A stretch of DNA of 64,000 bases from Marchantia polymorpha subsp. ruderalis (Eukaryota; Streptophyta; Marchantiopsida; Marchantiales; Marchantiaceae). The position numbers and the translations under genes are program-made. Under the pieces are notes generated by a model. The model worked only from the letters and a program-made list of their open reading frames with translations. It made no database searches and was not told the DNA's origin. The DNA lies in the NCBI GenBank assembly GCA_037833965.1, contig AP031353.1:746501-810500 (forward strand), in the 5' to 3' direction. Of the stretch, positions 9,245 through 64,000 are shown one piece after another (position 1 is the stretch's first letter; each line of letters opens with the position of its first letter).

Positions 9245-9509
9245 AATCGGTGTCATATTACAAAACTTGCATTAAATGTAATATCTCAAATATCGGATAT
9301 GTTAAACTTGACCTTTTTACTCACCTAACTGTATTACATCCCATTTTCAAAACGCGCCATTCCTATATCCGTTCACAATCGGTGTCATATTACAAAACTT
9401 ACATTAAATGTAATATCTCAAATATCGGATATGTTAAACATGACCTTTTTACTCACCTAACTGTATTACATCCCATTTTCAACAACGCGCCATTCCTATA
9501 TCCGTTCAC
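9245..9509. repeat. Two-copy tandem duplication, 132-bp unit
   Basis: Unit 1 is 9245-9376 and unit 2 is 9377-9509. They differ at only about five positions, including a short insertion near the end of unit 2, so the duplication is young compared with the surrounding sequence. Each unit contains the stretch AATATCGGATATGTTAAAC. Confidence 0.95.
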
Positions 9510-10797
9510 AATAGCACACGCTTGTTACTATAACCTCTGTTCACAACAAGGAGCACCAGTGATACGTTCTGGAATCATAGAGTTTTGCATGAGGTCATTG
9601 TTTTCTTGAGATGCATGGTGACCTGGGAACTGTTGTAAATTTTCATGTGAGAGAGTTCCTTAACGCACCCAAAAAAAAAAGTTGTTACAAGCGTCGATCT
9701 TATTGTTTACTGTAATTGGATATAAGAAGGGGTTCAAATTGGAAGTGGTATGGAATATATTAGGCTGCGTAAAACATGTGACTCGTGTCACATCCATTTA
9801 TTTGATTCCCGCAGACTTTCCCATTAATATGCACAGGAATCACACTTTCTTCTGTCGCATGTTTTATGTATTTTCAAACATATTATGGTATTAAGCTTCA
9901 ATGAGCAATATATATTTATACACAAGAATAAGTTTTAACATCGTCCTTGTAAGTGATCAATATCTGTCACTCAAAATTTTATTTATGATTTCTTATTTGC
10001 TGGCATGAAATACTGAGAAGCAAAGGGGAAAACAAGACTTGCTTATAGGATAGCATATACTTTTTCATTTCCTTGACTTCACGTGACTTAATTTCTATAT
10101 TTACATTCTTCGACTATCTTGATAGTTTTAGACCAACATTTTTTTTGTATTTCTTGAGTTTTTCAAGAGATAAAAAATTCAATATTCTATTAATAATCAA
10201 TAAAAAAGGGTGGAAAGCCCCCATTGGATCATAAATTATGAAATCAAACAAAAAATGGCCATTGTTTTATGCATTAACATTACAGCGAACAACCTGTTGT
10301 AACACACCTGAGTTTTTGCACACATCTAGATCAAACAATCTAAAAAAACTTACCCATTACAAAATAATCGTCTAACAATTGATTCATGTTTTATGAATTT
10401 AACTGATTTGTTATAATTTAATAAAATATTTACAATCTACACTTAACATCTAAAAAAATCATTATATGATGTTAATTCTAGTTTGATGAGCTTTCACCAA
10501 GTTTGTTGCAAACATGTCAAATCAGCATATTCTATGCATATCACAAATTTAGAATCCTATTAGTTTTTGTTTTAACGGTTAATTGGAAGCAGCCTGACCA
10601 TTTGAAACTATGTCATGTATGTTAGTTATTACATGTATAACCAATTAGTCTTGAATATACTAGATATTCTTTATATGAACACAATTACATGGCAGGTAAA
10701 TGATCATGAAGGGAGATCATCAATAGTTTGTCATACAAACAAACCATTAAAGTTGTCATCATGTTTAGTTGTTTGTGTTTCGGGTGGTAAACCAATC

Positions 10798-17400: not shown

Positions 17401-18594
17401 GCGCTCACGGATGTGATCGCAGCACGGATCCATGAGGATCTGGCTGAAATGCTCGTCGAGGAGTGATGGCTCGGCTACTATTACTATTCCATGAGCTAGT
17501 GATGGATGGAGAGAGTGGTGAATTTGAGTTGGAGTCAATGTCGACGATGTTGGACTTCGCTTGGGGGATGTAATTTGGGTTTCCCATGAACGAATCTCGT
17601 CTTCCGGAGCTCGCTCGATGACGCGCAGTGACACCGTTAGGGCTTGCGGGGGCGACAATCCGAACTGTCGAACTGAATATATTATTGTCTGGCAGCAGTT
17701 TCGTCCGGGGATATCTGGAAGCTGGAATTGCGGAGAAAACTGTGTGCCGTGCAGGAGAGCTGTACTTCGAGCTCGGAAGTCGTCCTCTTCTCGAGGGGTT
17801 TCTCCGACTCCTTCGTCACCGCCGCCCTGAGGTGCATCAGGGTTTATAGTACAGGCCCTTTGGCGGCAAGTGAAAGCGATAGAAGAAAAGGACGGGGCGA
17901 GGGCTGATTCAAATTCCACCGGCTCCCACAAATGACAACTCTAGAAAGGTGTGGCTTCACAAATGTGGAATATCAGATCTGTGCTCGGTGCCAATTTCGC
18001 CTGGACGGACAAGAGCTGGAGACGGTTGCGATGTACCACCACGTACAAGTAGGGCATTGTAGACTTCAATTTGTCAAAGGTTCGCCAACGACAGGCTTCA
18101 CGAACTCCAAGAGACTGACGACTCGGTGATGGAGCATCGATTTTCTTTGATGTCATTTTCTGCTGTGTACATGGTCGAAACTCCGCTCGGCTCCGAGTCT
18201 TCGGGAGAAAAGCCATCACCATTACGAATGACTGTGGAAGGGAATTTCGTGAAAAGTACTTCTCAAAAATCTTATCAGCCCTTATCTCGAAACTAGCCCG
18301 ACACTTGGCATTGTCAAGATTTGCTCGATGCATTACATCCAGTGTGTGCCTTGACTTGGACCGAAGGCTGAATGAACAAGAACAACTTCCGAAACAGTGA
18401 CATTGAAACTGACGAATTGAAGGTTAAATTTTAGTTGCAATAGAACGCAGACAATAACGACCAGTAAGCTGCCTTGGGCAAGGAAGAACGACAAGGAATT
18501 TAATCGCTGAAAGAATGGCCACACTGACATACTGGTCGGGACTCAGAAGCGAGACTAGGAATCGAGCCGAACTCAAAATCTGGAGTTGGCAGAG
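14451..18594. other. Region upstream of the proton channel gene; no coding gene seen
   Basis: Contains small tetranucleotide runs (AATG and TGCC near 14514-14545; GACC near 17055-17070) and a nested inverted repeat (listed). Long frames on the minus strand (for example 17931-17386) begin only at TTG and match nothing. An in-frame TAG at 18556 shortly before the channel ATG argues against an upstream coding exon reading directly into it. Confidence 0.45.
16206..16275. repeat. Nested inverted repeat
   Basis: Outer arms TCAAACTG (16206-16213) and CAGTTTGA (16268-16275). Inner arms CTGACAGCT (16241-16249) and AGCTGTCAG (16262-16270) enclose a 12-nt loop. Function unknown. Confidence 0.7.
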
Positions 18595-19314
18595 ATGAGA
18601 GAAGCTAGACAAATGAAAACATCAAACCCAAAATTTCAGGAAGCCAGAGATTCTATTACAACCATTCACCAACTTTACAATGCAAGCCGAAAGTCCACTC
18701 TCCACCCTGTGTCTGATCTGCAGACAAGAGACATCCAAGAAGCGAGAATACAGTGGAGGGTGAGGCTGGGAAAAGTTTTAGAGTCCACTCACTTCCACGT
18801 CTTGATCGTTTTTCTGCTTACGGTTGATCTGGTGGTTACGGTGGTGGATATCGTCAAGACGATCCATTCCAAGGACGCTGATTTCAGAACCTGCACCAAG
18901 TTACTGGAAGACTGTCAGTGTCATGATCATCTTGAGCATGCGAGCCACTGGCACTTTCTCTTGTGGGTTTCTGTTGGCATTCTTTCCTTTCTAGCACTCA
19001 ACGTTGTCGGCCTGATGGTGGCATTCGGCATGTCGTTTTTCCGACACATTGGTTACGTTTTGGACGCTGTGGTCGTGGGGCTCTCTTTAGGTCTAGAGAT
19101 CGGTTTAAATTCGGATACTCCCGGACTGTTGGTGCTTCTGACCCTCTGGAGAATCGTTAGGGTAGCACATGGAATTTTCGAGGTTGCCGATGAACATTGG
19201 GAGAAAGAGATCAAGAAACTGGAGGCACACGTACATGAACTTGAAGCTGTGCACAAGAAAGATCAAGAGCAGATTGCTCATCTTTCAGGTCAAAAAGAGG
19301 AGGTACTCGCTTGA
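18595..19314 (+). CDS. HV1-like: Voltage-gated proton channel (Hv1/HVCN1 family, plant type), single exon
   Basis: 239-aa voltage-sensor-only protein expected to carry H+ across a membrane as a dimer. Cytosolic N-terminus (1-65), S1 about 67-91, S2 about 121-146, S3 about 152-172, S4 about 178-194, then a charged C-terminal coiled coil (200-235). Aligned by eye to human Hv1: the selectivity Asp112 is kept (D78), Glu119 is Asp (D85), Asp174 is kept (D157) and Asp185 is Glu (E168). In S4 (LLVLLTLWRIVRVAHGI) the positions of Arg208 and Arg211 are kept, but the Arg205 position is Thr183 and Asn214 is His192. Glu153 of S2 is Asn136. The S1-S2 loop is long, with three Cys and a His-rich stretch (CHDHLEHASHWH). 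The start is the first ATG after an in-frame stop at 18556. No intron is needed. Family assignment is strong; gating behaviour is inference. Confidence 0.9.
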   Translation: MREARQMKTSNPKFQEARDSITTIHQLYNASRKSTLHPVSDLQTRDIQEARIQWRVRLGKVLESTHFHVLIVFLLTVDLVVTVVDIVKTIHSKDADFRTCTKLLEDCQCHDHLEHASHWHFLLWVSVGILSFLALNVVGLMVAFGMSFFRHIGYVLDAVVVGLSLGLEIGLNSDTPGLLVLLTLWRIVRVAHGIFEVADEHWEKEIKKLEAHVHELEAVHKKDQEQIAHLSGQKEEVLA

Positions 19315-21623: not shown

Positions 21624-24350
21624 CGGATGATCTTGCAGTCGGTGGGAATGTTGCAGAAAACCAGATCTTGCCCAAAACCCACCCAAAACAAAACTTCTGC
21701 TTCGGCACAAAAACAACAGACCTCTCGGGGAGGACTTGGAAAAAATTTCCAAATCAACGTCGAGCGAAACGAGAATCTATCAACCGTCTGACTCTCAAGA
21801 ACTCGCTGCTCAGGGTCAAGAATGTTGGCTAAGGAGGCGAATCCTTGGGGGAGAAAATGCTGTTCTCTATGGAGTGAAGAAGAAGGAATGCGGTCTCTAG
21901 CGCGGCAACGGAAGATGGGCTTTCAATGACGACGATGAAGCTTCCCTGCGTCCTCCCTGGTCGAGTAACCGGACCAGCTCTAACCACGGTTAGCGAGCGC
22001 GTCTCGAACGTCCTGCCAAATTTAGACACTAAAAGTGCAACGTGAGACCCTATTCTGACGGAAAGTGCAGTAACCATGGTTAGTTCCGACCTTTGGGCGC
22101 GCCAATGCTTAATGGCCGAGGTGGCCGGCTGACGACGTCTCCACTTCAACGTTGCTAGGTTGGACACGTGAGCCCGCTTCTTCTCGTTCAGACTTCCCAC
22201 CGGTTGACCTCGTTCACGGATGTTCTTGTATCGAGTGTGCTCTCCACGTGCTCCTGTATCGGCGACCTTTTCCTCTTCGCCAGGAGACGATTGTGCTCGC
22301 AAAACGTGTTGACCTGATGGCGGATGCCTTTGTCCGCTTTTGGCAGATGATCCTAGTTCCACAGAAGCTGGAGGAAACCCTGACTGCCCAAATTGGATAG
22401 CACTGAGCTGTATGACTTACCTCTGTACTACTATATCCAACCAGGACCGGAGTCAGCAGACCATGGCGTGCCCAGAATATCAAACTCTAGTTACTTCATT
22501 GGGTCAGACCGCATGACAGTTATGGAACTTTGGGATTTCAACATCATTTATTTTTTCCATACAAAATATTATGCGTAAGGATACCATCTCCTTACATCGT
22601 GCGCTACACTTGCGAAGTTAAGAAGTCCGCTGACATTTCGTTTGCAGCGGTCTGGAAAATGGATCTGCTATTTTCGTGGGAATTTAATTTACAGAATATC
22701 AATTTAGCACTTGTGTCTAGCTGTAATCCATCTTCAGGACAGGAGACTTTTATTTCATTCCTCACAAAGCGAATCGTCACGCTCTTGGTAGTTATGCCAT
22801 CCTTCGATTTTAATATATAGGATATAATAAACAGTTTCAAAACATTTCAACATTTCCTGTGTCGGAGCTTTCAACGCATCTTCTTGTAGCTTCAGAGTTG
22901 TTGAACCTGTATTTTCTGCATGGAATAAGATCTATCACTCATACAAATTCGTGACGAGTGTCTACTCAGAAAACTATGAGTATGTTTGACCACACAAAGT
23001 ATAGGAGCCTGGAGATCATCAACGGAAATAACCGAGAATTTTAACTTTCTCTTGACGTATTATTCCACGTAAGACTCTTCATGCCGTTCATGGTCAGAAG
23101 TCAAGTCATAATTCTAAAGCAAGAATTTTGTAATGTATGAAAAACGTAGTCCAGTCAAGGGCATCGTATATAGATTCTACCTCTACATATCTCGCCAATA
23201 TTATCAATACAGCATCTCCTGTAATATATTAAAGAGGGGACCAAATAAACCTCTCTACACTATTCCAGGAGAATATCAAATATTTTGGATACGCAAAGGA
23301 GAGATATACCATCTGAGAATCACGCCATACTGTAGTTGGAACTGGACTGTAGGCAGGAATAAATAGCCCCGCCGCAACGGCTACCATAGTTCAGGAGGCA
23401 GTTAGGAGCATCTACGACACATGTCCGGTGCAGAGGAGGACAGACAGCGACCGGGGCTGGGGGTGGGGTTCATGAACGCGAGACATAGTCGGGCAATGCC
23501 ATGCAACTGCGCGCCTACATGGTAAACCGGGGGAACCCGGTGAGGGCAGCCAAACGTCAGCAGGGGGGCCTGGTTCGGGTGTGGGGAATGTCAACCAACC
23601 AACGCACCAACGTGGGGTTGCGGAATATACATGTGAACGGGCGGCTGTCGGCGTTGGAATCACATGTATCCAGGTCAGTTTGCTGGCCATTCGTTGGAAC
23701 ACGTGGTGGAGGCGTGGGGCGAGACGTGAGCTGCACCCCGGATCCCTTTTGTCTGGTCTGGAGCCCAGAACCTCGGCTCTGGTTACCTTCACCAAGTGTC
23801 GTGGTTAGCCTATCGCCGGAACGCGTCCAGCTGCCGCACCCACGCTCTTACAAGTCGACGATGCGGACTTTCCTCGCGTCTAATTATTGGGGTCTGTGAC
23901 TTGGACAAGAACATGGTGCATGTCGACGTCGTGCATGTGGCCTCGAGTCTCGACAGTGGACCTCCAGAGTCCGGACTCTGGACTCCGATCTGGTCATGTT
24001 TCTGAGTTCTGTTTCGTGTTGCATTCTGACTGAATCTGGAGACTCCGAGCTCTTGCTCCGTAGAGCATTCTTAGGCACCACGTAGAGCATACAATGCACT
24101 TTGCGCCCACCGAGTCTCGGGAGCAACGAAACTGTTCATTCTGAACTGGATCTTCAGATGGCTTGCACAGTACCACCTTCCATTTATCGTTAGTTCTTCT
24201 GGAGAATCATTCGCTGATCGAGTTTAACCCCATGCATAGCTTTTTAATAGATTTTGCACCAGCTTCCAGACGGTTTTCCGGGCATTATGTCATGTGTGAC
24301 AATCCTGTTTCGAAAGTACCGGTGCATGATGTCCATCAGCTGTACTTTTA
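21624..24350. other. Upstream region of the LHC-like gene and spacer
   Basis: The first several hundred bases are the likely promoter of the minus-strand LHC-like gene and carry two palindromic GGTTA-type motifs (listed). Frames on the minus strand at 22362-21829 and 23795-23412 match no family I recognise. Composition becomes moderately GC-rich at 23.4-23.9 kb and then drops. No gene called. Confidence 0.4.
21980..22082. promoter_or_regulatory. Paired palindromic TAACC/GGTTA motifs upstream of the LHC-like gene
   Basis: Two inverted motifs, CTAACCACGGTTAG (21980-21993) and TAACCATGGTTA (22071-22082), lie about 360 and 450 bp before the ATG of the minus-strand gene. GGTTA/TAACC cores match plant MYB- and GT-factor sites and are common in light-regulated promoters. 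Binding is inferred only from the symmetry and the neighbour. Confidence 0.35.
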
Positions 24351-27694: not shown

Positions 27695-30600
27695 TCAAGA
27701 TGCACTTGTGCTGGACTTGCTATTCGTGATATATGACACGATAACTGTGATGTCGTCCATTTTACCACCGTAGAACCGGTATCCCGCATCTTGGGCAGCA
27801 GTCGAAAAGGGGGTCTGTCTGTTCCTGTCCTGAGCTCGTGTTCTTGCTAAATCAGCCACATTTTGAGCGGTCACTTGAGGGCCCATACCCGACCTGACCG
27901 CTTGTACTACCACCGTAGTCAACTCACTATCATACAAGTTGTCGAACAGGCCATCTGTGCCTGCAACAATCACATCGCCCACAGCTACTTCGATCGAGAA
28001 AACCTGGCACCCAAAAAAACAACCACACGCTCGTCAAGAGCCCGGTCCATGTAGACAGATGCCGGCGGAAAACTCAGGTTCCATCAATGTTCGATACCGA
28101 TCATGGTCTAAGAGAGCCAAACGAGACTCGAGTTACAGCTTAATATTTCTATTTTAAAACTATTTAAACAGCAACTTATGATTCGAAATTGCGAAAGTAA
28201 TAGGCGGCTATGCTGGGCTTCTGCAACACATATAAGTCAGAAATGAGTATTTGTAACAGATTTCATGTAATTAAACTTCACCTCGGCGGCACTAGGAGGA
28301 TCGCTCCCACCACTCTCCAGCTGGAAGGGAATATTGAACTGGTGTTGCTGCGCAGGCGACTTGAAAAGAGTACGAGAATTTCTCAAAATGACAAAACCAC
28401 TGTCTCCCAAGTTGGCCGCTTCCAAAACCTGTTCTCCAATTGCATAGAAGTTTTTGTCAGAATGGATAGGGCAATTTCATGTTCTTTGTTCGTGCTTTTC
28501 TTTGTATACTCAAGATGCGTTCAGACACTTCGGCGTAGAATGATGGAGGGAAACCCAAAAATCGCTGACATTCGGCATGAATAGATGGAAAGAACTAGTA
28601 ACATGATTGCAAGAAGTACTAATAATACTTCTGGTACCTTGCTAAAAATAGGCAGACGAGCATCACCCACTATCAGCGGACTCAGCCACCGCTCATCTTC
28701 ACTAAGTCGACGTATAAACAGCATAAAAATAATAAATCTAAAATTTTCACCATTAGATGAGGCAGAGTTTCTTCTTAATTAAGGTTTCAGAATGACAGCC
28801 ATTTATACGAGATAATTTGCTGACAATCCCTTTGGATTATATCACATGATCATAATGCTTCGAGATGATTCAAATATACAGACATTCTGGCAATTGCAGG
28901 AGCTTGACCAGCTACCTGTGATCCTTGCTTTGAAGCACACTCAACCCATGTCAGTTCCGCATATGAGGAGACTGAGATCTCTTATCTCTTTCCAACAACC
29001 AGTTCATAATTCAATGCATACTGGATAGGTTGTGTAGTAGTATTCATTAAGTGAACGTAAACTGTTCGGGTCATCCACATCACCATATCGACCTCAACAT
29101 TTGGCTTCAACGGCTTCAGTCCTGACATGAAGCTTGTCCAGATAAAATCAGACTGATGGGACTAATCTCTAAATAGCTTGAAACATAACGATGTACAATG
29201 GTAAACGATGCGTCCATGATGACAATGGATACATGGGATTTTCAATTACCTCACTTCGAAAAGAATCACAACGATCAGGCTCCTCAAGCTTTTTTCATTG
29301 ACTCTTCTCAGAAGCATATCCGAGCTGGAGAAGGCTGAAGGTATGAACCAGGATCATACAACATTGTTATGGCCACAGGGCAGCCACAGGAAAACTGCCC
29401 TGGAAAGTGAATCCATAACTTCAATCAGTAACAAATGTGGCTTCCTAAATATCCAAGAACCCAGCTACGTTATTACTATTTCCACAACAGAGCAAAGGTG
29501 CTAAGTGAGGCCAGAGAAAAAGTATCCTCACAGACAGAAGAAAGGATGGGAAGGATAAGTCAGATCGTGTTCATCCTACTTCTACACGTACGTCAGCGAT
29601 GAAAGTACACTAACACCAGTGTGTATTCATATTTCAATTTAAAGACGAGTATGGCTCGAACTAGGAGTTTCTCTTCCTTACTCCACACGGTGTCCAGCAT
29701 GATTGATGAGGTTCATAGCTGAAGGACCGATGTCCACACCCTCGATCAAACATGAACCAAGGTTCGAGTGAGGATGGAAAATTTGGCTTCTACATTGAAG
29801 AAACTGTAAGGAGACGTGATCGACTGCAAGGCCTACAGAAATTTTGCAATAAACACCAAGTGGGTACAAGTGCTGTACAATGGGTCTAAAAGACGACACA
29901 GAACAGAAAAAGAAGAGACGATATTCACAGAAACTGATCATACAATATATTCGAGCACAGAATGCATTACTTTGGTAACTCTGCAATAACAGTAGACGAA
30001 TAAGTGGGTCAAGGAAAGAAGATGGCATGGCCCGATCCACGTACCAATCCCTACAACCCAAGGGCGACTCCACCGAATCGAAAGAAGGTTTGACTGCCCT
30101 CCAGAAGGCGCTTCTACCAACAAAATACCATATTGCCCACCTACTCAATATACTGGCTAAAAGGCTCTAGGGCAAGTTACAATATTAACTTGAACTTAGA
30201 TAAGATAAGAAGAAGCCTGTAGGAAAACAAAGATTTCTCCACGGGCTAAGATCGAATCAGTCAAAAGTCGTGGATGGAAGCGTATCGACAGCTAGATGTC
30301 ATTGTTGCAATGGTCGAAGGGCATGAAAGGTTTGTAATAGTGGCAAAAGTTTAAGTTTGAGTCATCTCATGGGAACATTTTTCTCGACACAGAGGTTTAC
30401 AGACCGACCGTGGAAAAGAAAAAGTCAAATGACCACCAATCAGCAATATTCGTGTTGTTGACTCCAACAAACGGGCGCAACAAAAGGACTTCTATTATTT
30501 ATGAGACAAACAAACGTGATTATAAATGAGATGAGAAAAGCAGCAAACGAAAAGTTTAACAGGAGCTTCAATCTGAACACCACCGCAAGATAAAGGCGCA

Positions 30601-32621
30601 ATTACAGGGGCCCGACTTGTACAAGACTGAGAATTCCCAATAAGGGATAATGAACGTCTTGCACAACGTAAGTTGAGACGAAGATCCGAAAGAATATTGA
30701 GAGTAATCTCGATCAACTCTACCGAGTTCGGTGGAGCACAGACTTGAAGCAAACTATTGTATAGTAGCGAAGGTACAAGCATTATCAAGAAATGCACCAA
30801 AGGCAGAATGCAAACATATATGCATTGAAATGAAATGGAAAAAAATATACAGGACAAATGTACAAGCGGCATAACTTGAAGTGACAATGTAAAAGTGAAC
30901 AAATGGAAATTCTCTTTAAGGTTTTCTGTCAGTGAGCTTACAGAGTCTGACAAAGCAAGTATACAAGCCGTAGAGGAGCCTCTGCATTTCGTCATAGAAT
31001 GAGCTTTCTCTAGCACTCTCGCAGGATCGATGGATCCTTGAGGCTCCTCTCTGACGGCAATCATCGCTTGCGACATCAACTCGCGGGCATACTCTCCGGC
31101 ATCGATTCCTAGATCCGCCCAACCACCAACACCATCTGCCACTCCGACCACCTGCTTATCAGGGCATATGAAGTATGCATCCTCTCCTCCAGTTTTGATT
31201 TTGTCGGGGTGCGGAAGATTACACGCCCCGGAGAGGAGCTTCAGGGATTTGCTATCACTTACAGCTCTGCACAACAACAAAGAGGACATGAAAATCGTGA
31301 AGCATGAATAAGCAATACCGTATGAGGACTCGCAAATCCCTTCCACTGTTAAAACTTGGAACTGGACGGGTTAATAAAAGCTCTACTGTGAACTGCAAAG
31401 TGTGTAGACCACAACATGCGTCTACACTCTTCATGTTATGACACGCACATTTATCAGAGCTATGTATTCCGGTGACTTCTTGATTATGTTTTATATATCT
31501 CCATTCTATTTGGCCCTGTAGGTTCAGGGTGCTTAAGAAGTAATAACACATAGAAGAAGAGCTTCTTACTGCTCAGACTGCCGCTCGGGGGTGTCATTGT
31601 CAGATAACCGCTCCAAAGGCAAACCATCCCCTGCTAAACTCACGTCATGCAACGCCCTTATAAACACTTCGCCGAAGCGGGGTAAAATGGAGCTGCCATT
31701 GTGAACGCTAATTCCAGGAGCACGATTGAGCAAGGCTTGTGGTCTTCCTGACCCGATATTTCCTGGTTTCTCTTGATCTTTCTGCTGTGTCAATCCATTC
31801 AGCTTCCCTGTCTCCTCCACTTCCAGGGTGTAATCGCCATAATAGTTGCCCGCCCCTCTTTCCGAATTTACTACGGAGCGGGCAGTCCCTCTTTTCACTC
31901 CATACTCTCTACATTCAGCTCTTTCACCATTGCTGTCACTTAGGGTCTTGCATTCTAAAGATGAGACTTTACCTAGGGGATCGTCCCTAGCCTCAAATGA
32001 CAAATCCCTCCATCGTCTCTCCTTCCACAGCTCTTGCTTAAAGGAGGAAAGAGCATTCCGCGATGAGCCCTTGTCATTTCTCCTTGAAAATAATCTTTCG
32101 CCGGACTCGTTTGTAAAGGCATCTTTAACTCTTCCAAGTACTTCCTTCGCTGTTCTACCCGGTGCTACAAAAAGGCCTTTCTCCGACAAGTCTCTATTCT
32201 TGTCCGAATCGCTCCCGTCGATCAAAAGCTGAGAAGACTGTCGGAATTGACCGTGCACGGACGGAGTGGAAATCACCCTCGAAATTGCCGCGGTGGCCGT
32301 CAAACCTCTTTCCTTCTTCCCATTCTTAAGGTCAAGAGTAGACGCGGAATATGGCACCGATGATGGCCCAGCAGGTCCGGCACCGGGCGAGAAGGCGGAG
32401 ACGAAAGAATTGACAAACGATGGCCGCGTCGAAGAGGTATTAGGATCACAATCTACAGGCTTCCCCGGCGCGCAAACCGACTGTTTACCTTTCTGCCACC
32501 CGGGAGACTTATCGTTTTTGCTCGAACGTAGCAGAAAAAGCCGTCCCTTCCCCTGGCCTTCTAATTGCACAGTCGCTCGCACGCCAGCCTTCAGCTTCAA
32601 GAATTTGTGCAAAGAGGGCAT
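27695..32621 (-). CDS. PP2C-family Ser/Thr phosphatase (PP2C55-like) with long N-terminal extension
   Basis: Four coding exons: 32621-31570, 31266-30942, 28428-28282, 28003-27695. All have GT-AG borders and compatible phases, giving 610 aa. The first true ATG (MPSLHKFLKLKAG) was chosen; the frame upstream opens only at GTG. Residues 1-350 are a Ser/Gly/charged extension without a known domain. The PP2C domain (about 352-605) shows GGEDAY, VADGVGGW, GSSTAC, NLGDSG, AGTDGLFDN and DDIT, which carry the metal-binding aspartates. This is the short SpoIIE-like PP2C subgroup of Arabidopsis PP2C55 and relatives, a metal-dependent protein phosphatase, often organellar; its substrate is unknown. Intron 2 is 2.5 kb. 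It contains a 156-codon frame on the same strand that lacks an ATG and is not needed for the domain. The gene looks intact. Confidence 0.9.
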
Positions 32622-33600
32622 TTTCAGGAAATTCGCCCTCGTCACACACTCGTAATTCTCAATGACTACATCCACTCACTCCTCTGCCCCGCCACCACCT
32701 CTTCCCGACACCAAATCATTCCTGTCATCTCTCTCCTCGATCCCTCCCCTCCACTCCACTCCACCCAGCTCCCTCATACACCCTCCTCTCTGACCATGAT
32801 GTCGTCGCGAGTTATTGCCCTCTGGATCGCCACACTCACCCCCGAAATCCAGATCCCCTGTCTCGCTACCTCGTCTAAACTCTCTTCTCGCCTCGCCTCT
32901 CCTCTCTTTCCCTTCCCACCCTCCTCCGCTGCCACTGCCAACAAGAAACAACAACGAGAGCTCGCTCGATGTACAAGGAAGAAGGAGAGAGCAGCAGCGC
33001 AAACTTCAAAGCATCAAATACAGCAGCCCACACTCCACGCACGCATTTGACACGTTTCGTTCCCAGTTTCGTTTGATCGGTTCTTTGCTCCTCCCTCGCT
33101 CTTCGTCGGCCCGCGCTCGCTCTCTACAACTGAAAACTGCAGCTCCGCGGTGGATCCATATACGGCTCTCCGTCCGTTACTCCGCCCGGCGGACCGACCC
33201 CCTCTGTCCTCATCCGTCCGTCTGTCCGTCAGGCTCGCAGTCACCTGCCACGCTTTGTCAGGACTGACTCTGGACGAGGACCCCGAGCCGCAGCAGGACC
33301 GGCGCTGGCCTCCTTCGTCGACCGTCCGTCTTCGATTGACGAGGTGTCAATTGGCTCACGGCGAGGACAGGCGACTGGCCCAATTCGCTGTCCGTGGGCC
33401 TTTTTCCTCCCTACGGAGCTTTCCTCGCCGACCGGCGACCGGCGAGGGCCCGATTAGTTAAAGATGGGCCTTTTCTCTCTCTGCGGAGTGTTCCCTTGCC
33501 GACCGCGCTTTTTTATACTATCGGCCGATTCGCTGGGCCGCTTTCTTTCTATATATTATTCACCTAAAGCCTGTATTCTTGCCGCGACGGTCGTTCGGTC
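32622..33600. other. GC-rich leader/promoter region of the PP2C gene
   Basis: CT-rich on the upper strand (GA-rich in the PP2C transcript sense), with GTCC tetranucleotides near 33165-33235. It directly abuts the PP2C ATG, so it is most simply its 5' UTR and promoter. The proline/serine-rich frames here are by-products of composition. Confidence 0.5.
33377..33539. promoter_or_regulatory. Cluster of TGGGCC (site II-type) motifs in a diverged tandem duplication
   Basis: GGCCCA at 33377-33382 and TGGGCC at 33395, 33465 and 33534. The segments from 33395 and 33465 are diverged copies (70-bp spacing) sharing TGGGCCTTTT, a GCGGAG/ACGGAG block and TTGCCGACCG/TCGCCGACCG. Site II elements bind TCP factors in many plant housekeeping promoters. 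The cluster is about 750-920 bp upstream of the PP2C ATG. It could equally serve an unseen plus-strand transcript. Confidence 0.4.
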
Positions 33601-54786: not shown

Positions 54787-55057
54787 TTTCGCGAACTTTA
54801 CTCCACTTCGAGCATCCTTAGAAAATTCGGATCCGTTGCAATTTCGCCCCAGCTCCTTCCGCGAACTGTCGTCCACTTCGAGTATCGTTACTATGAACGT
54901 TAGATAATTTTGATCCGCTGCCCTTTCGCCAACTGTCCTCCACTTGGAGTATCATTACCATGAATCTTAGAATATTCGGATCCATTGCACTTTCGCAAAC
55001 TGTAATCCACTTCGAGTGTCGTTCTTATGAACGTTAGAATATTCGGATCCGCTGCCC
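54787..55057. repeat. Four-copy 67-bp minisatellite
   Basis: Units begin at 54787, 54857, 54924 and 54991 (TTTCGC-AACTGT) and a partial fifth begins at 55058. Each has TCCACTTCGAGT, a GAACGTTAGAATATTC-like block and GGATCCGCTGCCC or close variants. The first unit is shorter in its middle and longer at its end. Copies are clearly diverged from one another. Confidence 0.85.
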
Positions 55058-55735
55058 TTTCGCCCCCAACCTCGGTTTGTCACTTTCAACTTGTTTGACA
55101 TCGGATCACAATTCTAAGGTACTGTATACATTAATTTAAACATTGCATGTTCAAAATAACCTAGTTATTATAAAAATTGAGAGTAGATTGAGGGAAAAAA
55201 TTAATGGAAATTTATTACTGAACAAAATATGTCATATATGTGTAGAGATTTATGTGATGATATGTACATTGAAATAATACTATGAACTAAGTGGGTTGTA
55301 ACTAGAGCTATATGTTGCCATAATTTTGACTCAATTGTTGCAATCAATTATTGTTTTTCATGTATATTCTTGTAACATTATCCTTTGCGAAATACCATGC
55401 ATTTGTCTCTAGGAGACACATTCTAGATTTAATAGTTTTTTGAATAATGTTAAATTCTATGTATATATAATTTTTCTTATTGATATAACTTTTATCATAA
55501 AAAGAGATTTATTATTGTATGAGATAAAACATAATCACAAGTAAATGAGTATTTGGAACCATTTGGATAAATCTATCGTGATTATGTTACAATAATTTTT
55601 TTCAGTTGTTATGATAAAATGAGTAACATGCTTACAAAGAGATGATGTCAAATCAATTTTCTCTTCTTGGTACTCGAGGTCTAATGCAAAAGTTGATTAT
55701 ATGGTTAATCTGCCAGTAGTCATGTGCTTGTCTCA
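55058..55735. other. AT-rich flank before the LINE array
   Basis: AT-rich DNA without frames or repeats that I can recognise; it is the host sequence into which the LINE copies inserted. Confidence 0.5.
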
Positions 55736-55751
55736 AAGATTGCTTTGCTTT
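55736..55751. repeat. Left target-site duplication of LINE copy A
   Basis: AAGATTGCTTTGCTTT, identical to 60206-60221. Homology between copy A and copy B starts at the very next base (55752), so the repeat abuts the truncated 5' end exactly as a LINE target-site duplication should. Confidence 0.8.
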
Positions 55752-56239
55752 AAGCAGCTCACCTGCGGTGGAACCCGCAGGACAAGACAAACATCTTTAG
55801 CAACGCCGAGTCTCTGCTCCAGATGATTGAGGCAGGACTTGACAAACCCAGGAACCGCACGCTGGACGGACAGTGGATGCTACTTAGCGAAATCTGCAGA
55901 CACCTGTGGCTGAGCAGAAATCAGAAGGTGTTCGCTGGGTCCACGATCACGATCAATATACACGGCAGGGTTCGAAACACGGTGGACAAAGCGGTCTCGC
56001 AGTGGAAAGAATCACGACTCACCCCACCCCCGCGCAGGTGGCTGGAAATTGCCAAAACTCTCCAAAGCGCAATTGCAACGACTATGATCACGCGACTGGA
56101 AAGATGGCTCACAAAGACACTGATAATAAATCAGGACCCGACAGGACGTTCGGAAGCCTCCCACACGACGGAGGCAGCGATCAGATCGGACCTCCCCGAA
56201 TCTCCCGTCTCGGGCGATCCGGGCGGCATCCAATACTAG
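55752..56239 (+). pseudogene. LINE ORF2 C-terminal fragment (copy A)
   Basis: An open frame of 162 codons including the stop, covering the extreme C-terminus of ORF2 after the zf-RVT region (LRWNPQDKTNIFSNA, GRVRNTVDKAVSQW, LERWLTKTL, ending PGGIQY). It lines up without gaps with 62599-63086. Differences are mainly silent, and the frame is uninterrupted although it cannot be translated from its own start. Confidence 0.85.
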
Positions 56240-56428
56240 GTGCCCTCTCTCACTCACACCCCCTCCTGGTTCGGTCTCGAATGTTGTGACTGCTTGCTGG
56301 GAATGGTAATGCTGTTGTGACTATGCACTTGCGTCCGAGGTTGGTTGAGAGGATGGTTCGGGCTGTAAGACCGCTGGTTCTTCTGTCACTACGCCCGCAT
56401 AGCGGCCCCTCCTCTAAGTCCGCCTGCG

Positions 56429-56453
56429 CCCCCCCCCCCCCCCCCCCCCCCCC
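56429..56453 (+). repeat. Homopolymer run of 25 C
   Basis: Uninterrupted C run about 190 bp after the ORF2 stop of copy A. At the matching place in copy B (about 63282-63290) the run is much shorter, so it is length-variable between copies. Confidence 0.9.
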
Positions 56454-56727
56454 GGACAACTCTGAAATACATACCGAAGTACCCCGGCCGCCGCGCCGTT
56501 CTCCCCTGCAGTTTACACACCCACTCCCCACCACAGTTCACCACAGTCAGGCCTCTGCTTCCCTGCCACGTGTTGACCCCCAAGAAACCTCCGTACTCAA
56601 ACCGCCACACAGTCAAAACCAACTTACGCTCCAACCTCGTACCTGGTGGGTCTTCTCCCGGCTACTCGGACCGCTCCCCCGCCGGCCGCACACGCTTGCA
56701 CCTCATCGCCCCCTCGACGCACTCCTA

Positions 56728-57119
56728 CCCTGCACCCAGTACACAAACACCTCTCTGTCAGCTCCCCCACGCACGCTCACCCCCCGGTGCCCGCTGGACT
56801 GTGCCGGACCCTGCCGATCCCTACTCCCGAGCTCGGTGTGCCGCCTCACGCGGACACTGTCTTCCTCGGGACTGTGGATCTACTACTACGTTTTGGAATC
56901 TGCTATGCTACCACGAACTGCCACCCTGCACCTAGTACACAAACACCTCTCTGTCAGCTCCCTCACGCACGCTCACCCCTCTGTACCCGCTGGACTGCGC
57001 CGGACCCTGCCAATCCCTACTCCCGAGTTCGGTGTGCCGCCTCACGCGGGCACTGTCTTCCTAGGGACTGTGGATCGGCTACTACGTTTCTGGAATCTGC
57101 CTTGCTACTACGACTGCGG
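56728..57119 (+). repeat. 196-bp tandem duplication in the LINE tail (copy A only)
   Basis: Units 56728-56923 and 56924-57119 share CCCTGCACC-AGTACACAAAC, CTCTCTGTCAGCTCC and CGGTGTGCCGCCTCACGCGG with few changes. The matching part of copy B (about 63566-63760) has a single unit, so the duplication is specific to copy A or its source lineage. Confidence 0.85.
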
Positions 57120-58681
57120 CTCTCCCCCTCCCCACGTGGTGGGCCGCCCCACGCGTGCGGATCTTTTTCAGAGGGCGCTGCGGGGGGACGACACGTGGAC
57201 CTCCCGTCAGTGGTTTCTTCCCGGTGCATCCCCGGAACCCTTCCGGATCTGCACGGCTCTGTCATCACTGGGATCGCCCGACGGCCGCCCCCTCCCCCGC
57301 CCTCGGCTCATCATTGCTGCCTCCTGGCCACCCGGTTCTTCGCCCTCGCCGTGGAAACCTTCCCACGGCCCGGCGAACTGGTCCCAGGTGTCCCGGCCGG
57401 GCCCCTGCTTTTGCTGCTGCTGGAGGAGAAGACTGCAAGAAAAATTCACTCAAAAAAGAAGCTGGAAGTTCTCGGTGTTACCGCTCTGGGACCTCTCGAC
57501 CGCACACACTGGAGTCCTCGCTGCGCGGACGGAGTGCCCCCGGAAAATTTTGTACCCGGACCCTTGGCTGCTGCTCAGCGGCCCGACTCACCCCAGGAGC
57601 TCGTCCGGGGCTTCTCTCCTGCTGCTGCCGCTGCCGTTTCCGCATCTCCGCCTGTCACATTGGTGTGACGCTCGAGCCGGACCTCAGACGGACAGGAAAA
57701 GTGGCTGGCAGTCTGCAACCGCCACAAACGAATACCCCGAGCGACCCGGGCACGCCCACCTCGTGAAGGAACACCCCGCACAGCAAGTCGGGCCGCCACT
57801 GTCGGAGTCGGACCTGGAGATCTGCAATCTCCTCGTAAGTCCGGACCTGAATGACCCAGCCGCTCGGCCAGGGCATCATCAGGCACACCGGGCTTGGTGC
57901 GGTCCCGCCGCTCCCCCCTCCGATTGTGATTTCGCTCGGCTGCGGGTTGTTTCTCCCAGGTGGTCGCAGCTCGGGACTCGGCACATACACTCGCTCCAAC
58001 GACGGCTGCACGACTGGCAGATACTCATCCTCGAGTCCGAACCGATCGGGCACTCCCCGATGTGCTGCTGCAGATGGATCCGCCCGTTCCTGCCGCACGG
58101 CCCCCCGCATCCTCCCCCTCGCCATCTCCCTACAGCTCCACTACTATCACCGCCGCCCTCCTCTCCCCCCCCCCTCTCTACAGTCCCTCTCCCCGGTCGA
58201 TGCTCCCCCCCTCTACCACCTCGGCCGGTGGTAATTCTTGCGAATTCTGGCACACTCCACACCCCCCCTCACCCGCCTGATGCACCTAGCGTTTCTCTCG
58301 ACAAACTTGTCTCTTCACTCAAACACGTCACTGCCTCAGCACGGCCCCCTGCTCCGACTCGAGATCCTTCACCTCGATCGGAAAGACACGCCCACCCCCT
58401 TCGAAAAGGTCCCCACTCCACTCTCTCTTGCTTGCCCTCGTACTGTTCTGCTCCTGGTGCGTCTGGTGCTTCTGCGACCTCCTCTACCTCCGCGCAGGGA
58501 TAATATACCCCCCTGCCCGACCCCGGCACGTGCTCCTTTCGCCCGGAGTCTCTCTGCCCCGTCGGATCCCGCTAGCGGCGATCCCCCTCCAGGCTCTGGT
58601 TGCGACGGCTTCTCCTTCTCCCGCACCGTCGATCCGGGCGCCGCCTCGTACATCCGTCTCACGCGCACCACTCCCCCCCAC

Positions 58682-58820
58682 GGACTGGACCTGCCACTAA
58701 CCGTTAGTGGAAGGTCCGGTCCCCCCGTCCCGACCACCCCCTGGTCGGGACCAAGATCCCCTGGTCCGGGACAGGTGGCACCCTCCGGTGCCCTCTGTCA
58801 GGGAGTGGGGGCACGCCCCC
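58682..58820 (+). other. Cluster of four GC-rich stem-loops in the LINE tail
   Basis: Loop 1 (58682-58722): 4 + 6 + 7 paired bases with two single-base mismatches around CCG. Loop 2 (58727-58751): GTCCCGACCA paired with TGGTCGGGAC across CCCCC. Loop 3 (58770-58799): GACAG/CTGTC and GGCACC/GGTGCC around CTCC. Loop 4 (58807-58820): GGGGG/CCCCC. Four in a row within 140 nt is unusual even for GC-rich DNA and suggests a folded RNA. No known ribozyme or RNA family recognised. Confidence 0.7.
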
Positions 58821-59117
58821 CCCTCCCCCAGTCGCACTCCGGAAGACATTCCCTCTGACGGCGGGTTCGCCGTCCCCCTCTCGCCACGTGGCCTCTCCCC
58901 GGCCAGGTACGCCCTCCCCCTCCCCGCGGTACTCCCTGCGGAGAATCGTTGCTCCGTGTGTTTTTATGGGCCGCCGTGGCTTTTACTCGGCCCTGGCCTC
59001 GGGACTGTCTGACGCCGCGCGTGCCGCCCGGTTCGGGCTGGACGTTCGGCCCGAACCTGCTCCCCCTCCCGACCGCTGGCTCGTGCCGCGGACCGGAGGT
59101 CCCCGCTCCCCCGTGAC

Positions 59118-59175
59118 CCTATCCCTTTACGGATAGGATCCTCCTGCCTAGGTCCGACCGCCCGGGTTGACCTAG
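59118..59175 (+). other. Two further stem-loops in the LINE tail
   Basis: CCTATCC/GGATAGG (59118-59137, 6-nt loop) and CTAGGTC/GACCTAG (59148-59175, 14-nt loop), 300 bases after the main cluster. Confidence 0.65.
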
Positions 59176-59493
59176 TCCCCCCCCTGACTGACCCCCTCTG
59201 TCGGCCTGTACACCTGCTCTCCCCAGTGACGTGGCACTTTCGGACGCCATGTCTCTGTCCGCCCACTCTGTCCGACCCGTCACCTCTGCTTCGGCTTCTC
59301 CACTGCCCCGACATCTGCCATCCACTGCACCCGCCTCAAGATGCCTCCGACGTCCACGCCCCGCACACCGCCCGGCATCACTCCCGGCCGCCCCTGTCCC
59401 AGTCGCACGACACGCCTCTCGACGAACAAGTTACGCTCCGGAACCATGTAGCCCACCCTGACCACGTTCCCCGCGTACCAGGTTGCCTCGCCC

Positions 59494-59601
59494 GACCACG
59501 TACTCCGACCTCGACCACGTACCCCGACCGACCACGTACTCCGACTTCGACCACGTACCCCGACCGACCACGTACTCCGACTTCGACCACGTACTCCGAC
59601 C
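59494..59601 (+). repeat. Three-copy 36-bp minisatellite in the LINE tail
   Basis: Units 59494-59529, 59530-59565 and 59566-59601, each made of two related 18-bp halves beginning GACCACGTACTCCGAC or GACCACGTACCCCGAC. Near-identical; a degraded fourth unit follows. In one frame it would read as a 12-residue Thr/Tyr/Asp repeat, but nothing supports translation. Confidence 0.9.
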
Positions 59602-60205
59602 GACCACAGTCACCACCTCGACCACGTTACTCCAGGCTTCCTGGACTCACACTCTTCCGACGACAAATACGACTTACGACGCTGCCCGCCTCCGAGCTTC
59701 CCACCCCAGTGCAACACCCTCTGATTCTCCCTGCTGCTGCTTGCTTGCTGCTGTTCCCGGACCTCAGTGACAGATGCCGCGACACGGTCCCCACCGCCTG
59801 GATTACCATACTCTCCATCCTCTCTCCCTCCCTTCGCTCTCTTGTACATTTTCACGATTGCTGCACCTGACCCTGGGGACGGGGTACGTGGGCCCCCTCC
59901 CCTCTATGCATACAGCCCCGACTTTCTGTGGCTCTGAACCTTGCAGGTGGCGTGGATCCTTCTCCGACTGCTCGCTGTGCTGCGGGGCCCCTACCCCGGC
60001 TACGCTGCTGCCTGCTAGTTAGGATTGACCCGCGCTTGGCCGTGTATGCGCCCCTCTGCCCCCTCCTGTGCCCGGCTGCTGCGTCTGTGCGGCTCCTGGT
60101 GCGGCTGGGTGGCTTGTATTTCGCCCCAGTGCTCTTCCTCGCTCTCCCTCTCTCTTTGCAAGAGCCGAAATATGATTTCCCTGCGCGTCACACGCAGATT
60201 TCACC

Positions 60206-60221
60206 AAGATTGCTTTGCTTT
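60206..60221. repeat. Right target-site duplication of LINE copy A
   Basis: AAGATTGCTTTGCTTT, the exact partner of 55736-55751. It is followed at once by GCTTTGAGC and then copy B, so both copies use essentially the same GCTTTG-repeat target. Confidence 0.8.
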
Positions 60222-63200
60222 GCTTTGAGCTCATATCCTTCAGCTGAAACTTCAGTCGGGGGAGGAAACCAGGGACCCGGCGGTCATCCTTTGCACGATC
60301 GGCAAGTTCTACGCTGACCTCTACACCGCGCGTCCGAATTGTGAGACGGAAGTGACTGTCAAAAAGGATCTGATGGGCAAACTCACCGATAAACTCTCGG
60401 AGGCGGAGCGACTCATGCTTTCGGCCCCTCCGACGGAAAAAGAAATCGAAGACGTGCTTTTCGCCCTCCCCACGAACAAGGCACCAGAAGTCGACGGAAT
60501 CTCGGCTGAGGCCCTTCGCAAGACTTGGCCCCACATGAAAAAATTCTACCTGGCCATGGTGGCCAAGTTTTGGGAGGACGGGGTTTTAGCCGAAACGGTC
60601 ACGGAAGGGATGAACCGTCTCATCCCGAAATCGGTGAACAAACTGGAACTGAAGGATTGGAGGCCCCTCACGATGCTGAATACGGACTACAAAATCATCG
60701 CCAAGATCCTAGCCAGCCGTCTCCAGCTTCTCCTCCCGGCGATCATTCTGCCACAACAAACCGGGTTTGTGAAAGGCAGGAACATGCTGGATAATGTACT
60801 AACGCTGTGGATGGCACAAGATGCAGCTAAATCCAGTGACAGGAGTGGCATGTTTGTGAAGCTCAATTTTGAGAAAGCGTACGATCGGATGGAACACGAT
60901 AACCTCTGGGACACCATGCGGCATTGCGGCCTCGGCGAAGGTTTCATCGCGCTGGTGCAGGGCCTCACGCTGGGAGCATCGACCGCAGTTCATGTGAACG
61001 GCGCAAAAACCTTCCGCTTCCCCGTCGGAAGAGGCGTCAGACAGGGATGCCCACTCGCCCCGCTTCTCTTCGTCCTCGCAACTCAACCTCTGATGACGGA
61101 AGTGCAACATAATTACCGCATCGGCAAACTGAGAGGATTCAAAGTGGGCGAGTCTGTATTCTTGGATTACTCCCTGTTCGCAGACGACATGGGGGTCTTC
61201 ATCGAAGACTCCCAGGCATCCTTCTTGGAACTTCGCGCGGCCCTGGCGAAATACGAAGCCAGCAGCGGTGCGCACCTAAACCTTGCGAAGTCTTTGATTC
61301 TGCTGCTGGGAATGGATCGTCCCCCGAACTGGCTCTGCAGAACCGGGTGCGTGCTGATGGAACCTGGGGTAATCCACAAGTACCTCGGGGCCCTGACCGG
61401 GCTCGCTATCTCCAAACAACAGCAAGATGAGTTCTGCACGGCAAAAATAGCAAAAACACTTGGGGGCTAGGAGACCCGGCTTCTGTCGTTCGAAGCTCGT
61501 TCGGTCCTCCTCTAGCACGTCATCCAGGCGCAGCCAACCTTTTACACCTCGCTGATACGCCTCTCGCCGCAGACCTGCAGACGGGTGGAGCAGATGTACA
61601 GACACTTTCTCTGGGGGTACAACCAAGAAGGCAAGACGAAGAAAGCACTGGTACGCTGGGAGATGGTCTGCCGGCCGAAGAAACAAGGTGGCCTTGGCAT
61701 CTGCAGCCTGGCCGACACCAACGCCTCGCTCATGGGGAAGTGGATTGGTACGTTGCTTGACGACAAGGCAGGAGCGTGGGGTGGTGCACTTGCCGAGATT
61801 GTCACAAGCAGCCTGAAATACAATAAGAATGTGGTAAGAAGAGAGTACAGCATACAGGACATGATTTTTACAAATCAGCCGCTACGGATTCACAATACCG
61901 ACATGGGGAGTGCGCTACTGGCAAGCTGGAAACAAATCCAGAAGGACCTCAAATGGGAACCGGCAGGAGCGGCCATCCCAAGACATCTCACCCTGTGTGA
62001 CATTGTCTGCCTGCTGATGAATGAGACTACGTCCGCGGCCCCGCCGATAAAGCTCATCATGGCTAAGCTGCGCACGCTAAAGATTACGCAGGCCAAGACG
62101 ATCTGGACGCGTCAAAATCAGCTTCAGCAATGCTTCTCGCTGAACTCGATCTGCGAAAGCAGCAACACGGCCGACAACCACTTCCATCTGTTCTTGCAAA
62201 AAATGTATTCGACGCCAGGCTTAGCTGACACCCAGCTAAACAGAAGCACCGGCTGGAGGCTACGGGGGAAGCCGATCACCGGAGGGTTCACGGAGGCGGC
62301 GAAAGAATGGTTTGTGAGTGCCCCCCGAAACTCTCGCTGGATACCCATCTGAATCAGAAATGGAGGGAGCGGAAATCGGGGCCTGAATGGGAACACATCT
62401 TCTCCTCGCTCTGGGAACAGTACAACACGAACCGGGACAGAATTTTCATGTGGAGAATCCTGCAGCAAGCACTCTTCACTAACGAACGCGCAGCAAAGAT
62501 TGGCTTTGGGGATGGAAAGTGCGCGAGGGGCTGCCCGGACTCCGAATCGGTGGAACACATTCTCTTCGACTGCCCTTTCGCACGTCGGGTATGGGGCGAA
62601 GCTGCTAACCTGCGGTGGAACCCGCAGGACAAGACGAACATATTCAGCAACGCCAATTCACTGCTCCAGATGATTGAGGCAGGTCTTGGCAAACCCAGGA
62701 ATCGCACGCTGGACGGACAATGGATGTTGCTTAGCGAAATCTGCAAACACCTTTGGCTGAGCAGAAATGAAAAGGTTTTCGCTGGGTCCACGATCACGAT
62801 TAGTATTCACGGCAGGGTTCGGAACACGGTGGACAAAGCTGTCTCGCAGTGGAAAGAATCTAGACTTACCCCACCCCCGCACAGGTGGCTGGAAATCGCA
62901 AAAACTCTACAAAGTGCGATTGCCACGTCTATGATTACGCGACTGGAAAGGTGGCTCACGAAAACACTGACAGTAAATCAGGTCCCGACAGGACGTTCGG
63001 AAGCCTCCCACACGACGGAGGCAGCGATCAGATCGGACCTTCCCGAATCCCCCGTCTCGAGCGATCCGGGCGGGACCCAATACTAGGTGCACTCTCTCCC
63101 TCACACCCCCTCTTGGTTCGGTCTGGAATTTGTGACTGCTTGCTGGGAATGGTAATGCTGTTGTGATTATGCACTTGCGTCCGAGGCTGGTTGAGAGGAT

Positions 63201-63999
63201 GGTTCGGGCTGTAAGACCGCTGGTTTTCTGTCGCTACGCTCACCTGGCAGTCTCTTCCCTCAGTCCGCCCGCCTACCCCCTCCCCCCCCCTTTGATGACT
63301 CTGAAACACTTACCAATTCGCCCCCGGCCGTCGCGCTGTGCACCTCTGCAGTTAACACACCCACTCCCCACCACAGTTCACCACAGTCAGGCCCTCAGCT
63401 CTTCTGACAGGTGATGACCCCTAAAGACCCCGAAATCAGCACTGCCACACAGTAAAAACTGACATGCGCCCCAACCTCGTACCTTGTGGGTCTCTTCCCG
63501 GTTACCCCGACCGCTCCCCCGCCGGTCGCACACGTATGCCCACCATCGCTTCCACGACGCACTCCTACCCTGCACCCCGTGCACAACCACCACTATGTCA
63601 GCTCCCCCACGCACGCCCACCCCCCTGTGCCCGCTGGCTTCTGTGGCTTCTGCCGATCTCTACTCTCGCGCTCGGTGTGCCGCCTCACGCGGGCTCCGTC
63701 CACCTGGTGACTGTGGCACTGCTACTGCGGTTGGGCTCTGTTTGCTACTACGACTGCGGTTCTCGCTGAAGTCCTCTACTCTACGCGGTGGGCCGTCCCA
63801 CACGTGCGAGGCTCTCTCTGGTGATCGCTCGCGGGGACGACACGTGGACCTCCCGGCAGTGGTATCTTCCCGGTGCATCCCCGGAACTCTTCCGGATCTG
63901 CACGGCTTTGTCATCACTGGGACCGCCCGACGGCCGCCCCCTCCCCCTCACTCGGCTCGCTGCAGTTACCTGGTCGCTCGGATCAACCCTCGCCGATGA
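60222..63999 (+). mobile_element. LINE copy B, 5'-truncated, continuing beyond the window
   Basis: Starts within ORF2 upstream of the reverse-transcriptase domain, directly after copy A's right duplication. It runs through the ORF2 stop (63084-63086) and into the same GC-rich tail as copy A, cut by the window edge after 0.9 kb of tail. The exact 5' joint lies between 60222 and about 60235. Same strand as copy A, giving a head-to-tail pair. The RT and zf-RVT order is that of the plant L1-type LINEs; no endonuclease domain is present because of the truncation. Confidence 0.8.
60229..63086 (+). pseudogene. LINE ORF2 (reverse transcriptase + zf-RVT), inactive
   Basis: Conserved RT blocks: LPTNKAPEVDGISAE, RLIPKS, WRPLTMLNTDYKIIAKILASR, QTGFVKGRNMLDNVL, FEKAYDRMEHDNLW, VRQGCPLAPLLFVL, LFADDMGVF. 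The C-terminal zf-RVT is seen as CARGCPDSESVEHILFDCPF. The motif A catalytic Asp (KLD in relatives) is Asn here (codon 60865-60867), while both Asp of FADD (61183-61188) are kept. TAG codons at 61468-61470 (expected Trp) and 61513-61515 (expected Gln), and a frame change at the C run 62321-62326, break the frame. An in-frame TGA at 60226-60228 marks the 5' side. So this copy cannot encode an active enzyme. Confidence 0.9.
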
Positions 64000-64000
64000 A

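Follow-up and report, generated by a model that had tools for sequence, protein, structure and literature searches.

Plant long interspersed nuclear elements (LINEs) of the L1 type normally have short 3′ untranslated regions (UTRs). The plant L1 clade includes groups such as Cin4, BNR, Karma and LIb, as named in part of PMC9033089, and almost all L1s of flowering plants end in poly(A), according to passages of PMC3747384. The same passages describe mammalian and most flowering-plant L1s as thought to use poly(A), and propose a stringent ancestral mode for green plants; L1s of the stringent type (the maize/sorghum group, ME1 lineage) have a conserved hairpin within their terminal 45 nt, and the Chlamydomonas element L1-1_CR ends in poly(A) (PMC3747384). 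Unusually long 3′ UTRs are reported in sections of PMC5537684 for HeT-A, TART and TAHRE of Drosophila and for GilM, GilT and GilD of Giardia, with a strand bias that is G-poor in the Drosophila elements, and antisense G-quadruplex motifs are discussed for HeT-A-type elements in a portion of PMC10088271. Zepp and ZeppL, which are green algal L1-type LINEs, form clusters, located at putative centromeres in Chlamydomonas (excerpts of PMC8226300). The locus described here lies in a stretch of 64,000 nucleotides from Marchantia polymorpha subsp. ruderalis (contig AP031353.1, positions 746,501 to 810,500 of the forward strand), which is called the window and to which all coordinates refer. It holds two LINE copies arranged head to tail, both 5′-truncated inside open reading frame 2 (ORF2), copy 1 at 55752 and copy 2 at about 60229, truncations that leave the apurinic-type endonuclease and ORF1 of L1-type elements outside both copies. 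With moderate confidence, copy 1 (55752–60205; Table 1) can be read as a single L1-like LINE insertion that was dead on arrival, the RNA of the element carrying an unusually long 3′ UTR of roughly 4 kb; as part of this single-insertion reading, and with the same confidence, the sense strand of the UTR would be C-rich and G-poor and would end without a poly(A) tail.

Copy 1 is flanked by a 16-bp direct repeat. The 16-mer AAGATTGCTTTGCTTT has exact matches only at the two positions listed in Table 1 when the 64-kb window is searched with up to 2 mismatches allowed, against a mean of 0.04 matches expected from 100 shuffles. The initial annotation had reported this repeat and had placed its first occurrence right beside the first base homologous to the second LINE. 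Both statements hold; homology between the copies begins exactly at 55752 (equivalent to 62599 in copy 2). The right repeat sits where the C-rich sequence stops, just ahead of the mid-ORF2 start of copy 2. Since its left copy coincides with the truncation point and its right copy with the border between C-rich and mid-ORF2 sequence, the repeat has the pattern of a target-site duplication, and its assignment as the target-site duplication of the copy 1 insertion is well supported. Its length falls within the usual L1 size. The L1-type combination of a variable target-site duplication with 5′ truncation is thus seen, at 16 bp, for copy 1 only, the right end of copy 2 lying outside the window. 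The left flank (55.2–55.8 kb) is AT-rich and CpG-poor, and just upstream of the LINE pair a 67-bp unit is repeated about three times (54855–55064).

The last 161 codons of ORF2 are retained in copy 1 as an open frame that stops at 56237–56239, and the C-terminus is identical to that of copy 2 at 149 of 162 positions, the stop included. At the DNA level 441 of 488 positions are identical, so that the coding DNA of the copies is about 10% apart. Nonsynonymous (dN) and synonymous (dS) divergence over this shared end were estimated as 0.039 and 0.36 (NG86) and as 0.040 and 0.33 (YN00), a dN/dS of about 0.11–0.12; the low dN relative to dS indicates that the family was under protein selection while both lineages diverged. 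Copy 2, whose given start is that of its open frame and not an exact insertion junction, has a broken frame (stops at 61468 and 61513, frame change before 62350) and carries the Pfam domains RVT_1 (6.3e-30) and zf-RVT (PF13966; 1.5e-11). Its best PDB match is L1 ORF2p (9hdo, 1.1e-42; 8uw3, 2e-42), in chains that we take to be human, and R2 is weaker (3.9e-19). Query residues 6–362 align to residues 393–745 of the 8uw3 chain and, because its residue 6 corresponds to ORF2p residue 393, copy 2 is also 5′-truncated. The reverse transcriptase is nearer to L1 ORF2p than to other solved LINE enzymes, a placement that draws on PDB matches, among which few clades are represented, and not on a clade tree. 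In copy 2 the zf-RVT domain is located after the reverse transcriptase, an association typical of plant LINEs. No further LINE remnants were found in the window by tblastn with pieces of the copy 2 ORF2, which returned one 19-residue match (E 8.8) besides the two copies. Searches of viral and prokaryotic collections, which amount to weak evidence here, gave no match to the reverse transcriptase in viral_contigs; an exact 33-mer from the conserved UTR block described below had no match in viral_contigs, and its 28 pattern matches in genome_contigs yielded 0 confirmed.

The tail that follows the ORF2 stop begins alike in both copies. When 56240–57356 is aligned to 63087–64000, 749 of 903 columns are identical, and 214 columns are gapped in copy 2, mostly owing to a 196-bp duplication found in copy 1 only. 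The claim that the first kilobase of the tail occurs in both copies is thereby borne out as far as the end of the window. Because the alignment ends at the window edge (64000), the tail lengths are lower bounds: copy 2 shows 0.9 kb or more of the LINE 3′ UTR, and copy 1 shows 1.1 kb or more. Judged by this alignment, it is well supported that a tail of at least 0.9–1.1 kb is part of the LINE. The block directly after the stop (56240–56379 in copy 1, 63087–63225 in copy 2) is 96% identical between the copies and a second conserved stretch near 57201–57300 is identical at 94 of 100 positions, with five other segments measured at 71–82%. The best 140-column run of the UTR, taken without reference to its position, has 5 differences and was equalled in 0 of 2000 column permutations; the corresponding counts were 0 of 2000 for the best 100-column run and 29 of 2000 for the best 60-column run, and the best 60-column windows fall at 56293–56383. 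The post-stop block is more conserved than the ORF2 DNA, yet there is a one-base indel inside it and nothing pointing to coding. It also folds slightly worse than shuffles (56240–56380; z +0.98 in copy 1 and +1.28 in copy 2), and conservation as an RNA structure is not supported. From its identity between the copies, the block seems to be conserved as if functional.

At the right border, the bases preceding 60206 read ...GCAGATTTCACC, with neither poly(A) nor an A-rich 3′ end. This agrees with the earlier description of an element ending in TTTCACC without poly(A), and runs of five or more A in the tail occur only at 57440 and 57452. A missing poly(A) alone does not exclude L1-type membership, given the wording "almost all" in the passages of PMC3747384 cited above, but the element is best described as L1-like rather than as a typical L1. 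The terminus at 60205 may be aberrant, or the true 3′ end may be that of a rival reading. Folding of the terminal 50 and 100 nt of the tail does not exceed that of shuffles (z −0.52 and −0.64), ARAGORN predicted 0 tRNA genes, and the three Rfam matches returned at E values up to 5 lie far under their cut-offs, none of them in 56240–60205. On these grounds a tRNA-like or other known RNA end was rejected.

From the ORF2 stop to the right duplication the tail amounts to 3,966 bases (56240–60205). Its distal 2.85 kb (57357–60205) has its only copy within the window, as copy 2 leaves the window first. The trinucleotide distance to the shared tail is 0.28–0.32 for three parts of this unshared tail, whereas the nearest host window is at 0.419 and the host median is 0.765. 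Windows with C of at least 0.36 and GC of at least 0.58 make up 62 of 66 in the tail (overlapping, 500 bases) and 15 of 1104 in the host, and the tail is C-rich throughout, from about 56.4 kb to 60.15 kb. The observed/expected ratio of CpG in 200-base bins is 0.51–1.71, mostly 0.8–1.0, across both LINEs and the tail, and 0.28–0.44 in three bins of the left flank. By duplication and composition together, the full 3.97 kb is probably the element's own 3′ UTR. The initial inference that the whole tract is one element therefore stands at two strengths: the LINE, the duplication and a tail of at least 0.9–1.1 kb are well supported, and the full 3.97 kb is probable, with no second copy of 57357–60205 in the window and an A-rich patch at 57440–57457.

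Several points weigh against a single insertion with a 4-kb UTR. An L1-type element without poly(A) departs from the usual pattern, as given in part of PMC3747384. The distal 2.85 kb is seen in one copy only, and GC-rich host stretches at 5.8–6.8 kb and 32.75–33.4 kb come fairly near the composition of the tail, which makes composition weak evidence. The A-runs at 57440 and 57452, the first 84 bases past the last comparable position (57356), could mark an earlier 3′ end. Furthermore, a structured cluster of hairpins at 58670–59190 stands out, is bracketed by a 15-nt direct repeat and could be a separate insert. Finally, the steps of the mechanism proposed below are read from the anatomy of the insertion.

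The A-runs lead to the main alternative, which we consider unlikely, in which the LINE ends near 57440–57457 with a 3′ UTR of about 1.2 kb and an old poly(A) remnant, and the remaining 2.75 kb is flanking DNA, 3′-transduced by read-through from one source copy; nested DNA could also follow such a worn poly(A). If this were true, the locus would be an ordinary LINE with a 1-kb 3′ UTR plus a transduction. It draws on the position of the only A-runs of this length in the tail and on the homology to copy 2, which cannot be traced as far as these runs. However, a transduced end is expected to have poly(A) at 60205, where there is none; host DNA matching the C-rich profile of the UTR over 2.7 kb is unlikely, given how few host windows pass the thresholds (15 of 1104); and composition dips at 57400–57600 with no lasting step.

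The initial annotation had described the C-rich tail as strongly folded, which holds for one part of it. Four pieces of 966–1000 nt gave, from 5′ to 3′, z = +2.45, −0.07, −4.67 and +2.07 (20 shuffles each). The sole piece that folds better than shuffles, 58206–59205, does so because of the hairpin cluster (z = −6.42), and the other three do not. In 200 shuffles the mean number of hairpins is 0.97 and the maximum is 4, whereas this cluster has 5; for the whole tail the count is 8 against a shuffle mean of 2.7. The hairpins are long, GC-rich and unlike the remaining tail, and no Rfam match was found there. A second mobile element nested in the tail, for example one holding this cluster, would leave the LINE with a 3′ UTR of its own shorter than 3.97 kb, though one still ending at 60205. 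We regard this as distinctly unlikely. The concentration of folding and hairpins in one place would fit such an insert, as would the imperfect 15-nt repeat on either side (58601–58615 and 59287–59301; 87% identical). Nevertheless, the low-complexity tail holds 16 families of short direct repeats (14 nt or longer), of which this is one, and it may well be due to chance; no Pfam match was found in the frames tested nor any Rfam match in the cluster, and the composition is C-rich on either side of it.

Two weaker explanations concern the borders. It is very improbable that copy 2 owns the GC-rich tract as its 5′ region (5′ UTR or ORF1), or that copies 1 and 2 are a single tandem product of template jumping. 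The copies do follow one another head to tail with almost no gap. However, copy 2 starts mid-ORF2, at a point corresponding to about residue 390 of ORF2p and no more than some 8 bases from the second repeat; the tract follows the end of ORF2 in copy 1 and has the same beginning after ORF2 in copy 2; and a jump would leave no 16-bp target duplication between the units. A GC-rich tract placed upstream of ORF2, which the initial annotation had named as a finding that would speak against it, is accordingly disfavoured for copy 2. A chance origin of the 16-bp repeat, with a meaningless boundary at 60205, is similarly improbable: AAGATTGCTTTGCTTT includes a simple TTTGC run, and one other dispersed exact repeat of at least 16 bases is present in the window (an unrelated far-apart pair at 22551, 17 bases; short-spacing tandem or simple repeats and LINE–LINE homology left aside), but the repeat ends exactly where homology starts and recurs exactly where the C-rich sequence ends before mid-ORF2, and the longest downstream recurrence of the suffix ending at 55751 is 16 bases, against a maximum of 12 for control suffixes at 740 upstream positions.

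The tail looks non-coding. Its open frame at 56290–58503 has 737 codons, a length reached in 0 of 300 shuffles (maximum 447). Nevertheless, a coding tail was rejected, as differences between the copies are flat over codon positions (51/284, 57/285 and 42/285), indels shift the frame repeatedly and the copy 2 tail has stops in all three forward frames, in a comparison that reaches to 57356. Pfam gave nothing up to E 1 in 7 stretches representing 6 distinct frames, one on the minus strand, out of 24 stop-to-stop frames of at least 95 aa that overlap 57357–60205.

Table 1. Features of the LINE pair and its tail (coordinates in the 64,000-nucleotide window).
Feature	Position	Strand	Basis or remark
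Left copy of the 16-bp target-site duplication	55736..55751	+	Exact repeat; adjoins homology start 55752
Copy 1, 5′-truncated ORF2 end (C-terminal 161 aa and stop)	55752..56239	+	Open frame; identity to copy 2
Conserved 3′ UTR block right after the ORF2 stop	56240..56379	+	133/139 columns identical to copy 2
Remaining shared C-rich 3′ UTR	56380..57356	+	C25 run at 56429-56453; 196-bp tandem duplication at 56727-57117, copy 1 only
C-rich tail without counterpart in the window	57357..60205	+	Assigned by duplication and composition
A-rich patch	57440..57457	+	Only A-runs of at least 5 in the tail; possible old poly(A) under transduction
Cluster of near-perfect hairpins	58670..59190	+	z = −6.42 on the plus strand, −5.65 on the minus strand; 0/100 shuffles fold as well
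Tandem repeat array, period 19/36	59492..59633	+	Repeat detection
Right copy of the 16-bp target-site duplication	60206..60221	+	Exact repeat
Copy 2, LINE 5′-truncated in ORF2 just before the reverse transcriptase domain	60229..63086	+	RVT_1, zf-RVT and PDB matches
Copy 2, start of the matching C-rich 3′ UTR, cut at the window end	63087..64000	+	Alignment to copy 1

Elsewhere in the window, an exon-like open frame at 18559–19314 (+) is related to voltage-gated proton channels (PDB 5oqk, 7.5e-08; 3wkv, 1.2e-06). Open frames at 30495–32675 (−) gave nothing significant in Pfam and are presumably pieces of a PP2C-type phosphatase gene, which they resemble in motif. A tandem duplication with a 132-bp unit, 97% matching, is located at 9245–9512.

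Compared with plant L1-clade LINEs, the locus is alike in its L1-like reverse transcriptase followed by zf-RVT, its 5′ truncation and its target-site duplication, but copy 1 lacks poly(A) at 60205 and, should the entire tract belong to the element, would greatly exceed them in 3′ UTR length. With the stringent-type plant L1s and L1-1_CR it has in common the idea that template recognition depends on a conserved 3′ region, as set out in passages of PMC3747384. By contrast with the maize/sorghum group, however, the terminal 50 and 100 nt of copy 1 show no more folding than shuffles, and the conserved block seen adjoins ORF2; unlike in L1-1_CR, poly(A) is lacking. The resemblance to HeT-A, TART, TAHRE and the Gil elements would lie in the unusually long 3′ UTR and the head-to-tail neighbours and, for the Drosophila elements, in the strand-biased, G-poor sequence; two copies here show a 3′ UTR of at least 0.9–1.1 kb, and it would reach 3.97 kb only if the duplication bounds one element. 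The host is different, and the neighbouring pair consists of truncated copies with an ordinary duplication and an L1-like reverse transcriptase, at a site not shown to be telomeric. In addition, Drosophila telomeric elements end in oligo(A), whereas copy 1 does not. Antisense G-quadruplex motifs are no commoner in the tail than in shuffles (2 motifs against a mean of 3.37, with as many in 266 of 300 shuffles), and an antisense G-quadruplex function was rejected. Zepp and ZeppL are similar as L1-type LINEs occurring in clusters, a likeness by description and without sequence comparison, but here a single LINE pair lies beside gene-like DNA. No plant LINE with such a tail was found among the literature titles and abstracts listed, a weak negative, as phrases containing "3′ UTR" are poorly searchable and subscription journals are thinly covered.

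The route proposed for the insertion of copy 1 is target-primed reverse transcription, and it builds on four features established from the sequence, namely the truncation, the duplication, the shared UTR and the lack of poly(A) at the right border. The endonuclease of the element would nick the bottom strand before AAGATT, and the reverse transcriptase would start on the non-poly(A) RNA end ...TTTCACC, which shares at most two A's of AAGATT. The tail and 0.49 kb of ORF2 would then be copied before reverse transcription stops, and repair of the staggered cut would yield the 16-bp duplication. Alternatively, the start may have been internal priming inside a still longer RNA. Copy 2 would stem from another insertion, that of a somewhat diverged relative; as the open frame of copy 2 starts 8 bases past the right repeat, both insertions appear to have used nearly one site. 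In a simple account, copy 1 would have re-used a nick site within the left duplication of copy 2 itself, which implies that AAGATTGCTTTGCTTTG should be found after the 3′ end of copy 2, beyond the window. Candidate roles of the conserved block and of the hairpin cluster are template recognition, RNA stability or promoter activity.

How L1-type enzymes select their RNA template is an open question. A tentative extension of the single-insertion reading is that an L1-type LINE lineage in a green plant has dropped poly(A) priming and uses a 4-kb, strand-biased and partly structured 3′ UTR either to recognise its template specifically or to serve copies downstream as a promoter. This lineage might then parallel HeT-A and Gil by independent origin and represent a living case of the stringent L1 recognition that has been put forward as the ancestral state in green plants. 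If the reading is true, an L1-type LINE without poly(A) and with a long, partly conserved UTR would offer a testable element for the stringent-ancestral-mode proposal, and would be a parallel to the long 3′ UTRs of telomeric LINEs.

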